This document shows, piece after piece, positions 19,139-24,121 of a DNA stretch of 64,000 nucleotides. This stretch comes from an uncultured Cohaesibacter sp. (GTDB lineage Bacteria; Pseudomonadota; Alphaproteobacteria; Rhizobiales; Cohaesibacteraceae): NCBI RefSeq assembly GCF_963676275.1, contig NZ_OY781091.1:2458775-2522774 (forward strand), in the 5' to 3' direction. Both the position numbers and the translations under genes were made by a program. How positions within the stretch are numbered: the first letter of the stretch is position 1; the number at the start of each line of letters is the position of its first letter. Below the pieces are notes generated by a model. It searched no databases, was not told where the DNA came from, and saw nothing but the letters and a program-made list of their open reading frames with translations.

Positions 19139-19382
19139 GATCCCGATCTTTCCTTAATGCGAACAAACTCTGCCAAATCGGCAGAAAACCAATAGGAAGC
19201 GATACCTACCACTGTTGGGAGAAAATGCAAGACAGTCGATCATTTGGGCGCGACTTTGTTGCCTTTTCACCTGTTGCCACAGCCCTTGGCAAAAGAGACA
19301 GCTTTTTTATTGGCAGAAAGGTAAACCGGTGTTAACACATTGACACCATTCGACTGTAGTGACAAGAAAAGGGAACAACAAA

Positions 19383-20003
19383 ATGCATTTCAAACAACTG
19401 ACAGCCGTTCCCATTTTGCTTGCCCTTGCGGCCTGCAATCCCCAAACCACCAGCTCTACCGCAAGCTGGGTAAGCGCCATGAATAATCGCGCACCAACAG
19501 AGACCACGATTTATGTTTGCCACGCTTTCGGATGCCAACTCAAATATGGCTATCGTTTCACCAAGGCCGACCTTTCAAAGCTGAAACGCATCCTCAGGGC
19601 AGGGAGCAAAAACCCGCAAGCCGAACGCAAGGCAATCGGCAATGCTGTCGCCTGGTTTGAAAAGCGTGTGGGGCCGATCATCGGTTCTGACAAGGACAAG
19701 GGCGGACTGGACATGAAAAATGCCGGCGTTCCGGGGCAGATGGACTGCATCGATGAGGCCAGCAACACCACATCGCTTATCTCCTTCGCCCAGAAGCACG
19801 GCTTCCTGAAATATCACAAGGTTCAGTCACCCGTTGCGCGCGGCTATTTCCTCGACGGGCGCTACCCGCATGCAACAGCCGTCATTCTGGAAACAGAAAG
19901 TAACGAGCGTTATGCAGTCGACAGCTGGATCTATGACAATGGCGTCTTCCCCAAGATCAAGCCTTTGAAAGATTGGATGGCAGAAACCCCATCGCGAGGC
20001 TGA
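19383..20003 (+). CDS. Conserved lipoprotein of unknown function
   Basis: I recognise this only as a protein conserved in alphaproteobacteria. The ATG is preceded by AAAGGGAAC. The first 20 residues are a lipoprotein signal peptide with lipobox LALAAC, so the mature 189-residue protein would be anchored by cysteine 18-19. Strongly constrained segments are GVPGQMDCIDEASNTTSLI, ARGYFLDGRYPHATAV and YAVDSWIYDNG. The order Cys, then His, then Asp in these blocks resembles a transglutaminase- or NlpC-like catalytic triad. That is an inference from the pattern only. It is monocistronic, with a terminator 75 bases after the stop. Confidence 0.8.
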   Translation: MHFKQLTAVPILLALAACNPQTTSSTASWVSAMNNRAPTETTIYVCHAFGCQLKYGYRFTKADLSKLKRILRAGSKNPQAERKAIGNAVAWFEKRVGPIIGSDKDKGGLDMKNAGVPGQMDCIDEASNTTSLISFAQKHGFLKYHKVQSPVARGYFLDGRYPHATAVILETESNERYAVDSWIYDNGVFPKIKPLKDWMAETPSRG

Positions 20004-20110: not shown

Positions 20111-20180
20111 TATGCAGGATACTGTCGACTGGTGGCTGGTGGAATGGTCTGATCTGGAACAAACAGCCAAATGATTGCCC

Positions 20181-20297
20181 AAAATACGAAAAGCCCACCG
20201 GGGGAGGAGGTCCGGTGGGCTTCGTAGGGTGTTTCAAAACGGGGAGGAATCGTTTCGAAACGTCTCAGACCTTCGGGAGGAGGAGAAGGCCTGAATT
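20181..20297 (-). ncRNA. Anti-Shine-Dalgarno sRNA, alpha-r14 (NfeR1) / cuckoo type
   Basis: On the minus strand three hairpins follow one another with short spacers. In transcript order, the stems are 20285-20293/20266-20274, 20251-20261/20231-20241 and 20212-20222/20191-20201. Their loops read TCCTCCTCCC, ATTCCTCCC and ACCTCCTCCC, each complementary to ribosome-binding sites. The first two stems have one imperfect position each, A-C on the plus strand, which becomes a G-U pair on the minus strand. The third stem is a perfect 11-pair helix followed by TTTTCGTATTTT and serves as terminator. TAAAAT (20309-20304) is a possible -10, giving a 5' end near 20297 and about 117 nucleotides. NfeR1 in Sinorhizobium is similar in size and loop motif. 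The exact 5' end is uncertain. Confidence 0.85.
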
Positions 20298-21004
20298 CTT
20301 CAAATTTTACATCCCTACCGCGCGTCTAGCGGTCTGGGTTACGTCTGCTCTGGAAATGCTCAACTCGCATTCCCTGTTTGACAGACGATTTAGATTATCG
20401 ACCGTGTCACGAAAATTGCGCCACTGTCTATAATTCTGAACAACCGTATCTGGCATCATTGCGATCCTACGTTGCCGAACCTTAGTGACTTGCCATCCTC
20501 AGGATGACTATTTCGTTTTCAATCAACATCTCGCTGTTGTTGATAAATAGATAGCAAAAAGTTTTTAATATTTGCACTGCGAAAAAATGCATAGCTGGCC
20601 TGCACATCATGCAAAACCATTGGTACTCAAAATTTTGCCCCACAGATTCCGCATGACGAAATCGAGAAAAGGCATTTAATCAAATTATTTCAATTACTTA
20701 GAAAGTTAGCAAAATTCGAATATTACATTTCAAAAAATAGGCAATTTTTCGAAATTTATTCACAATTGAAATAGTTTGCCGATTATTGCAGCAAAACGGC
20801 AATCGCATTCAGCCTGAAAATGTCAAAGCCAAAGCCATATATTGCAGCGCAACACAAACGCAGAGAATCAAGATGATTTAGGTCAATGCAAATGAATTAC
20901 ATGACAAGAGATCACGCTTATCATTTTAATTTCAGATACTTAAATAAATTTGACCATAAAAAAAACATGCTGCACCGCCAAAGGTATTACGTATTAATAC
21001 GCAG
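20298..21004. other. AT-rich intergenic region between the sRNA and uvrA
   Basis: About 700 bases with no credible open frame. The part nearest 20310-20400 should hold the sRNA promoter, including CTAGAC on the minus strand at 20329-20324. Small inverted repeats are CATCC/GGATG near 20495 and the 12-base palindrome CGTATTAATACG at 20990-21001. Composition is far more AT-rich than the genes on either side. I find no tRNA and no recognisable family of structured RNA in it. Confidence 0.5.
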
Positions 21005-21029
21005 ACAAAAGTGAGCAGAATCACTTTTT
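21005..21029 (-). terminator. Rho-independent terminator of uvrA
   Basis: On the minus strand AAAAGTGA pairs with TCACTTTT around a six-base loop. It overlaps the uvrA stop codon and ends in a T run. Confidence 0.7.
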
Positions 21030-23915
21030 CGCATCTCGTCTTTCCCTTAGCTCTTTCAGGAAATGACCGGTATAGCTCTGCTCACAATGCATGACATCAT
21101 CAGGAGTTCCGGCGACCACGATCTGACCGCCACCATCTCCACCTTCCGGCCCCAGATCCAGAATCCAGTCGGCCGTCTGGATCACTTCCAGATTATGCTC
21201 GATCACGGCAACCGTATTGCCCTGATTGACCAGCTCATGCAGAACCTCGAGCAGCTTGGCCACATCATGGAAATGCAGTCCCGTCGTCGGCTCATCCAAT
21301 ATATAGAGTGTGCGACCGGTGGACCGCTTGGAAAGCTCCTTGGCGAGCTTGACCCTTTGTGCTTCACCGCCAGAGAGCGTCGTTGCCTGCTGTCCCACTT
21401 TCACATAGCCAAGCCCGACCCGTTGCAGCGTCACCATCTTGTCGCGCACGGCGGGCACGGCAGCGAAGAAATCGGCGGCCTCGTCAACCGTCATTTCCAG
21501 AATGTCCGAGATCGACTTGCCCTTGAACTGGACCTCCAGCGTTTCCCTGTTATAGCGATGCCCCTTGCAGACATCACATGTCACATAGACATCGGGCAGG
21601 AAATGCATCTCGATCTTGATGACGCCATCGCCCTGACAGGCTTCGCAGCGCCCACCCTTGACGTTGAAGGAGAAACGCCCCGGCGCATATCCGCGCGCCT
21701 TGGCTTCGGGCAAACCGGCAAACCAGTCACGAATGGGCGTAAAGGCACCGGTATAGGTGGCCGGATTGGAACGGGGCGTGCGCCCGATGGGCGACTGATC
21801 GATATCAATCACCTTGTCGACATGTTCCAGCCCCTCGATCCGATCATGCGGGGAGGGCATGTCTCTGGCGCGATTGAGCTTCATCGCCGCGCTTTTATAA
21901 AGCGTATCAATAAGGAATGTCGACTTGCCGCCCCCCGAAACACCCGTCACGCAGGTGAAGGTACCCAAGGGAATCGAGGCGGTGACATTCTTGAGATTGT
22001 TACCGCGTGCATTGACCACGGTAATCTGCTTTTTCTTCTTGCCCTTGCGTCGCTCATGCGCAACGGAAATGCTCATCGCACCGGAGAGATATTGCCCGGT
22101 CAGCGAAGCCGGATCCGCCATGATTTCGGCAGGTGTCCCCTTGGAGACAACATGGCCGCCATGAACACCGGCGCCGGGGCCCACATCCACCACATAATCG
22201 GCCTCCAGCACGGCGTCTTCGTCATGTTCGACGACAATCACCGTATTGCCCAGATCGCGCAGATGCTTGAGCGTTTCCAAAAGGCGGGCATTGTCGCGCT
22301 GATGCAGACCGATCGAAGGTTCATCGAGCACATAAAGCACCCCCGTAAGGCCGGAGCCGATCTGCGAGGCAAGTCGAATGCGCTGGCTCTCGCCACCCGA
22401 GAGCGAGCCGGACCCGCGCGACAATGTCAGATATTCAAGCCCCACATCATTGAGGAACTTCAAACGATCCCGGATTTCCTTCAGGATGCGCTCGGCAATT
22501 TCCTTCTGCTTGTCGCTCAAGGTGGCAGGTAGATCCTGCACCCATTTTGCCGCCGCCCGAATGGAAAGATCCGCCACTTGCGAAATATGCTGCCCATCCA
22601 GCTTGACCGCGAGCGCTTCGGGCTTGAGGCGATGCCCCTCACAGGCCGAGCAGGCATGGGCCGACTGATATTTGCCGATGTCCTCGCGCACCATGCTGCT
22701 TTCGGTTTCCCTGAAGCGACGCTCCAAATTGGGTATCACGCCCTCGAATGGCTTGGTTGTCTTGTAGGAACGGGCCCCGTCATCATAGACAAAGAGCAGC
22801 TTCTCCTTACCGGTCCCATAGAGAATGACTTCCTGTGCCTTGAAGGGCAGCTCGATCCAGGGAACCGTGAGAGAAAAGTCGAAATGCTTGGCCAGAGCTT
22901 CCAGCGTCTGACGGTAAAAGGGCGACGATGTCTTGGACCATGGCGCAATCGCCCCGTCCTTGATGCTGCGCGACGTATCCGGAATGATCAGCTCCGGACT
23001 GATCCGCAATTCGCTGCCCAGACCGTCACAGACCGGGCAGGCACCAAACGGATTGTTGAACGAAAATAGCCGCGGCTCAATCTCGGGAATGGTGAAACCG
23101 GACACAGGGCAGGCGAATTTCTCCGAGAAGGTAACCCGCCGAGGCTCGCCATTGTCCTCCTTCTCGTCGACCATTTCAACAATCGCCAAACCATCGGCCA
23201 ATTCAAGCGCCAGTTCCAGCGAATCGGCAAGACGCTTCTCAATGCCTTCCTTGACCACCATGCGGTGAACGACAACCTCGATATTATGCTTGAATTTCTT
23301 GTCCAGAGCCGGCAGGTCGCCGTCATCATACATTTGCCCGTCGATGCGAAAGCGCGTCAGCCCGCGCTTGACTAGTTCCGCCAGCTCCTTGCGAAATTCG
23401 CCCTTGCGCCCGCGCACAATGGGCGCCAGCAACAGAAAACGGGTCTTTTCGGGCAGTTCCATCACCCGGTCCACCATCTGACTTACCGTCTGGCTTTCAA
23501 TCGGCAAGCCGGTTGCCGGACTATAGGGGATGCCGACACGGGCAAACAGCAGGCGCAGATAGTCGTAAATCTCGGTGACAGTCCCGACGGTCGAGCGCGG
23601 ATTGCGCGAGGTCGTTTTCTGCTCGATGGAAATGGCGGGTGAAAGCCCTTCAATCGAATCGACATCGGGCTTCTGCATCATCTCCAGAAACTGCCTTGCA
23701 TAGGCAGAGAGGGATTCGACATAACGCCGCTGCCCCTCGGCATAGATGGTATCGAAGGCCAGAGAACTTTTGCCCGAGCCGGAAAGCCCCGTCATGACGA
23801 CGAGCTGATCGCGCGGAATATCGAGATCAACATTCTTGAGATTGTGCTCGCGCGCGCCGCGAATCGAAATCACTTTCTGCGAGGGCATCTGAGGCACTTT
23901 TTTATCAAAACTCAT
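21021..23915 (-). CDS. uvrA: Excinuclease ABC subunit UvrA
   Basis: The damage-recognition ATPase of nucleotide excision repair, 964 residues from the ATG giving [14 protein letters not shown]. The frame is open 33 codons further. Two ABC modules are visible, with Walker A motifs [10 protein letters not shown] and [10 protein letters not shown], and ABC signatures [12 protein letters not shown] and [12 protein letters not shown]. The second zinc finger is intact (CEAC...CDVC). In the first, CPVSGFTI carries serine where Escherichia coli has the second cysteine, while ACPVCDGLG keeps the other pair. It is divergent from ssb across a 386-base gap containing a LexA-type site. Confidence 0.97.
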
Positions 23916-24121
23916 GTCAAACGTTCTTTCTCTCACCGCGGGACATAGATCCCGATTGCTCCGAATATGCGATACGAAGCAATCATCGCCGGGGATCACC
24001 AGCACGCCGCGCAAACCATCGCATTTTCCACCCGATGCAATATCGATTTATAAAAATCAAGGCAATGGCCAATTCTTCGCGGCCTTCCGGCATTGCCAGA
24101 ATAGTCGCCGGGCTTTTCTTT

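Follow-up and report, generated by a model that had tools for sequence, protein, structure and literature searches.

The 64,000-nucleotide stretch of Cohaesibacter DNA analysed here (the window) carries on its minus strand a member of the known ar14 (cuckoo-type) small RNA family, located 7 nt behind a short gene for a DUF1127 protein. We consider it probable that the two belong to one LsrB/VtlR-activated transcript, from which the small RNA would be cleaved and whose three loops would then block Shine-Dalgarno sequences. The first-pass annotation had described a small RNA between a lipoprotein gene and uvrA, and both neighbours are present, but the DUF1127 ORF immediately before the RNA had been overlooked. 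The features of the locus are as follows.

20186-20299, minus strand: ar14 (cuckoo-type) sRNA, full covariance-model match (Rfam RF02344, 77.1 bits)
20266-20293, minus strand: hairpin 1, loop UCCUCCUCCC (sequence and fold; 6 of 9 pairs changed on both sides)
20231-20261, minus strand: hairpin 2, loop AUUCCUCCC, core UCCUCCC kept (sequence and fold; 3 of 11 pairs changed on both sides)
20181-20222, minus strand: hairpin 3 (20191-20222), loop ACCUCCUCCC, and U-rich tail to 20181; presumed intrinsic terminator (sequence; 3 of 11 pairs changed on both sides)
20300-20306, minus strand: AU-rich 7-nt linker AAUUUGA from the DUF1127 stop codon to the sRNA; candidate processing site
20307-20459, minus strand: DUF1127 small-protein gene (Pfam PF06568), 50 codons from ATG 20459; the ortholog-aligned start is ATG 20456 (49 codons)
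20524-20542, minus strand: short CAACA...UGUUG inverted repeat within the presumed 5′ leader, kept in nine aligned orthologs
20548-20576, minus strand: presumed core promoter from ortholog comparison, TGCAAA (20571-20576), 17-nt spacer, TATCTA (20548-20553)
20588-20602, minus strand: predicted LsrB/VtlR-type box CAGGCCAGCTATGCA, whose reverse complement fits GCAT-N3-TG-N3-T (sequence, orthologs, published consensus)
21021-24014, minus strand: uvrA, conserved neighbour (ORF named from its sequence; synteny)
19359-20003, plus strand: convergent lipoprotein-like gene, conserved neighbour without a Pfam family (ORF; synteny)

Identity and fold of the small RNA

The Rfam ar14 covariance model (RF02344) matched 20186-20299 over its entire length (model 1-123 of 123) with 77.1 bits against a gathering cut-off of 58.8 (E 3.7e-12), and the match in the window lies on the minus strand only. 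Both the family and the transcribed strand proposed in the first-pass annotation were therefore borne out by the covariance search that it had suggested. The minus strand folds with -50.1 kcal/mol (z -6.76), while the plus strand gives z -3.08. Sequence, fold and the presence of UCCUCCC in each loop confirm the three stem-loops with anti-Shine-Dalgarno loops described earlier, and the two imperfect stem positions do read as G-U on the minus strand.

Comparison with orthologous loci, also named beforehand as a check, revealed compensatory changes in all three stems. Among 37 same-genus copies (29 distinct rows), 98.1% of the cells of the 31 named pairs are paired and 12 of these pairs have changed on both sides, values that were each reached by 0 of 500 shuffles. 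The number of further pair types in the ar14 alignment, 26, is less clear, as 30 of 500 shuffles reached it. Pairing drops to 26-57% when the structures are slid by 1-3 columns. The last hairpin is presumed to be a terminator from its GC-rich stem succeeded by UUCGUAUUUU; it was not in the output of a terminator scan with a loop limit of 8, its own loop being 10 nt long.

Every loop of all 37 same-genus copies contains UCCUCCC. The full CCUCCUCCC stands in loops 1 and 3 of the window RNA, with AUUCCUCCC in loop 2 instead; 25 of the 37 copies have the full motif in loop 2, and the paralog at C1:712780 carries it three times. Identical CCUCCUCCC in all three loops is given as a typical ar14 trait in the literature (PMC10746234), a trait that the window RNA lacks; it is filed under ar14 despite its loop 2, since membership in the family is decided by the covariance model. 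The middle loop has thus diverged from the conserved motif, as had been noticed, but the accompanying idea that target choice may differ is unsupported, since the first bases of loop 2 vary among copies (AUU, UCU, AAU, ACC and others) and UCCUCCC is kept throughout. On these grounds we rejected the proposal that the middle loop confers a target specificity of its own.

The DUF1127 gene and its association with ar14

The ORF at 20307-20459 matches Pfam DUF1127 (PF06568) with 24.0 bits, barely above the cut-off of 23.3, and an NCBIfam search gave no match at E 0.01. Across nine orthologs the mean dN is 0.018 and the mean dS 0.75 (dN/dS about 0.02), and given this low dN relative to dS the protein looks real and constrained, that is, the ORF looks to be under purifying selection.

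A DUF1127-like ORF stands directly before ar14 in 35 of the 37 same-genus copies over the cut-off, at a gap of 0-52 nt. At least 26 of these 35 ORFs were recognised by a Pfam match and nine by inspection of the translated ORF, namely those of eight loci aligned as orthologs with that of the window, plus the one in genome G016. Counting all 75 ar14 rows, strong and weak, at least 44 have a DUF1127 match no more than 600 nt upstream; among rows from outside the genus this applies to at least 18 of 33. The pairing covered DUF1127 rows on contigs that also carry an ar14 row, and the DUF1127 gene of the window came from a separate genome search.

The ar14 search covered 61 genomes, with a match in 34 and a match over the cut-off in 23. 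Two copies in the window genome pass the cut-off (the window RNA and C1:712780-712892), and a third is weak. That genome has three DUF1127 matches over the cut-off, two of which sit right before the two strong ar14 copies.

Several further elements were seen. The third DUF1127 match (C1:1199064-1199147) lies inside a longer ORF (131 aa) with no listed ar14 copy nearby. The weak third ar14-like element (C1:948617-948719; 35.1 bits, under the cut-off) lies 13 nt behind the gene of a solute-binding protein (Peripla_BP_4), and weak ar14 matches with comparable scores are present in G007, G012, G014 and G016. Between its ORF and its RNA, the second DUF1127-ar14 locus contains an additional inverted repeat, CTTTCGCT...AGCGAAAG, which is also found in several same-genus copies. 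Two other genera of the family (G018, G019) have several DUF1127 matches together with tandem ar14 or weak ar14-like RNAs.

Promoter and regulator

Nine orthologs share a TGCA half-site block followed by exactly 17 variable bases (9/9) and then by TATCTATTT or TATATATTT. The candidate box lies within the TGCA array at 20571-20616 and fits GCAT-N3-TG-N3-T, the published VtlR/LsrB consensus (PMC8844928, PMC7486931). In reverse sense, this pattern was found at most 480 nt upstream of 35 of the 37 same-genus ar14 copies; equally long stretches downstream, used as the control, contain it in 1 of 37 cases. By inspection, the two copies without it have one mismatch each, and both lack the DUF1127 ORF. 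A narrower pattern, CANNNCAGCYATGCA, has five matches in the genome and none with the reversed-pattern control. Two of the five are the promoters of the two DUF1127-ar14 loci, two lie inside ORFs and one lies just before an ORF. Results beyond the genus vary: among 26 of the 33 ar14 rows, each set against 100 single-base shuffles, 10 had a box-like match reached by 0/100 shuffles, 6 gave p 0.01-0.05 and 10 gave p 0.14 or more.

The DUF1127 ORF ends 7 nt from the sRNA and the conserved promoter signature is found some 250-300 nt before the RNA, so that the sRNA is most readily interpreted as the 3′ portion of a DUF1127 transcript. An RpoH-type sigma factor, instead of LsrB, might drive such an operon, as the RpoHI/RpoHII promoter of ccaF1-CcsR in Rhodobacter sphaeroides would suggest (PMC10253847), but the conserved upstream block here is a TGCA array with an LsrB/VtlR box and a spacer of constant 17 nt, and we judge control by RpoH unlikely.

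A LysR-type gene in the window genome (C1:3665543-3666433) has as neighbours an oxidoreductase gene resembling trxB and a weakly matching ar15-like (AbcR-like) RNA, which scores 25.5 bits, under the cut-off of 40; another weak ar15 match elsewhere scores higher, at 30.0. A thioredoxin reductase adjoins vtlR in Brucella with abcR2 nearby (PMC12595884), and AbcR1/2 adjoin lsrB in S. meliloti (PMC8844928). From gene order and published descriptions, the LysR gene is putatively assigned as LsrB/VtlR-like. The AbcR-like RNA after this gene (C1:3666588-3666723) carries CCTCCTCCC. The LsrB/VtlR regulator and small RNAs in Agrobacterium were reportedly the subject of a study by Eisfeld in 2021.

Gene order and loss of the ORF

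Eight genomes of the genus, taken with long flanks, and one from a different genus of the family share the gene order ssb - uvrA - ar14 locus - lipoprotein - trmFO - phytoene-synthase-like, and uvrA, lipoprotein and trmFO are present at seven shorter loci of the genus. At the orthologous uvrA locus of G008 and G013 the DUF1127 ORF is absent, with the RNA and a similar promoter motif kept. The motif starts 85-88 nt before the RNA in these two genomes, compared with 281-321 nt elsewhere, from which we infer that a similar promoter was moved closer by the loss of the ORF. In a tree of ten UvrA sequences G008 and G013 form one clade (support 0.989; two deeper nodes are weak, at 0.37 and 0.43), which suggests that the ORF was lost once, in their lineage.

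These two species bear on two other explanations of the locus. That the RNA is kept without the ORF could mean that the sRNA is transcribed separately, from a promoter within the DUF1127 ORF, the ORF being a mere neighbour, in the manner of stand-alone NfeR1, for which an own promoter is described (PMC10746234). Against this, the conserved motif of the ORF-less species lies 85-88 nt before the RNA, brought there by loss of the ORF, and a scan of 20150-20700 for TTGACA/TATAAT-type (sigma-70-like) sites found nothing, though it missed the proposed promoter too; an internal promoter seems improbable to us. Still less plausible is that the RNA is just a structured 3′ end that stabilises or terminates the DUF1127 message and has no action in trans. 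That it immediately follows the ORF in 35 of 37 copies would fit, but all loops of the 37 copies preserve the core while the stems covary, the promoter motif and the RNA outlast the ORF in two species, and the characterised relative NfeR1 acts in trans (PMC10746234, PMC7143759).

Predicted targets

The start-proximal motif GGGAGGA occurs at 113 sites in the genome, against 15 for the reversed pattern. It was used because the full 9-mer pattern, GGGAGGAGG-N2-8-ATG, barely exceeded its reversed control (4 sites against 2). Of 100 sites taken from the 113, 81 precede a usable ORF (60 aa or longer) and 19, with shorter ones, were dropped. At least 29 of the 81 usable ORFs encode solute-binding proteins (ABC, TRAP, tripartite tricarboxylate), a figure obtained by adding up six Pfam tallies (8+7+7+3+2+2), on the assumption that they do not overlap, among the 25 families listed of 64. 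The control motif AAGGAGA (125 sites, reversed 13; 100 taken, 67 usable) gave no solute-binding family among the 25 listed of 53, and the excess for GGGAGGA over it is significant (Fisher p 1.7e-9).

Closer controls gave a different result. AGGAGGA has 76 sites (reversed 6) and TGGAGGA 102 (reversed 9); the first 30 loci of each yielded 38 usable ORFs out of 60, at least seven of them solute-binding, counting NMT1_3 (2 members), among the 25 families listed of 32. The excess of GGGAGGA over these controls was not significant (p 0.058), nor was it with a matched sample of the first 30 GGGAGGA loci (9 of 24 solute-binding, with SBP_bac_6 and SBP_bac_11 counted as one protein; p 0.14). The first G of GGGAGGA, which pairs with the last loop C, thus had no significant effect relative to the AGGAGGA/TGGAGGA controls, and solute-binding genes appear, from motif counts, to go with strong GGAGGA sites, those with A or T as the first base included. 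Given this non-significant difference the list of GGGAGGA targets serves as no more than a lead. The solute-binding proteins predicted here agree with the transport targets that have been reported for NfeR1 (PMC8844928, PMC7143759).

Proposed mechanism

On the reading that we prefer, a single minus-strand transcript would start near 20540, run through the DUF1127 ORF and the ar14 sRNA, and end at the third hairpin. A putative LsrB/VtlR-like LysR regulator probably activates it at the predicted box (20588-20602). The sRNA would probably be freed by cleavage in the AU-rich linker, presumably by RNase E and perhaps with the aid of the DUF1127 protein. Pairing through UCCUCCC, its loops would cover the Shine-Dalgarno regions of many mRNAs and so prevent their translation; those of transporter solute-binding proteins are plausible targets.

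The proposed cleavage has a precedent in Rhodobacter, where RNase E and CcaF1 process the ccaF1-CcsR transcript (PMC10253847). Other DUF1127 proteins reportedly act via protein contacts, such as with PhoR in Agrobacterium, and Salmonella YjiS is described without evidence of RNA binding (PMC12501420). A role of the DUF1127 protein in maturation here, which we offer with a perhaps, is therefore only borrowed from Rhodobacter.

Relation to known systems

The RNA resembles S. meliloti NfeR1, the ar14 reference, in its three anti-Shine-Dalgarno hairpins, its model match over the cut-off and the LsrB-type site upstream; LsrB binds and activates the NfeR1 promoter (PMC10746234). It differs in standing behind a DUF1127 ORF, whereas NfeR1 has an adjacent promoter of its own, and in a middle loop that has UCCUCCC but lacks the full CCUCCUCCC. 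The ORF-less loci of G008 and G013 resemble the stand-alone layout of NfeR1.

Short DUF1127 genes with CcsR-like sRNAs are frequent in alphaproteobacteria and have been named CIN1 (PMC10253847), a layout (short DUF1127 gene beside a CcsR-like sRNA) found at the window locus and in 35 of the 37 genus copies. Like the CIN1-type ccaF1-CcsR1-4 of Rhodobacter sphaeroides, the window locus has a short DUF1127 gene followed by a cuckoo-type RNA and a terminator; the two differ in that four sRNAs are described there and one is present here, that processing here is predicted, and that an RpoHI/RpoHII promoter there contrasts with an LsrB/VtlR-type box here (PMC10253847). The LsrB/VtlR regulon of Agrobacterium and Brucella includes AbcR RNAs, VrsA and DUF1127 genes (PMC7486931, PMC12595884). 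The shared points are GCAT-N3-TG-N3-T before a DUF1127 gene and a LysR gene that has a trxB-like gene and a weakly matching AbcR-like RNA as neighbours. The difference is that here DUF1127 and the ar14 RNA would share one presumed transcript, under a predicted box. In the literature covered, which was available in part and to which the primary cuckoo/CcaF1 papers did not belong, no report was found of an LsrB/VtlR box upstream of an operon that combines DUF1127 with ar14, and the search returned no paper on a Cohaesibacter small RNA.

Implications for LsrB/VtlR-type regulation

It could equally well prove right or wrong, in our estimation, that an LsrB/VtlR-type protein-plus-sRNA operon of Cohaesibacter joins the LsrB-NfeR1 and VtlR-DUF1127 relations, described separately in other bacteria, and that a single ORF loss (G008, G013) made an NfeR1-like gene from it. 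Since one such loss would give an NfeR1-like gene, the operon and stand-alone layouts may derive from one ancestral unit. The natural deletion would allow RNA maturation to be compared at the same place between species with and without the DUF1127 ORF, as a way of asking how the protein serves its RNA. One conserved locus would thereby tie together two outputs of LsrB/VtlR that have been studied separately, DUF1127 proteins and ar14 RNAs.
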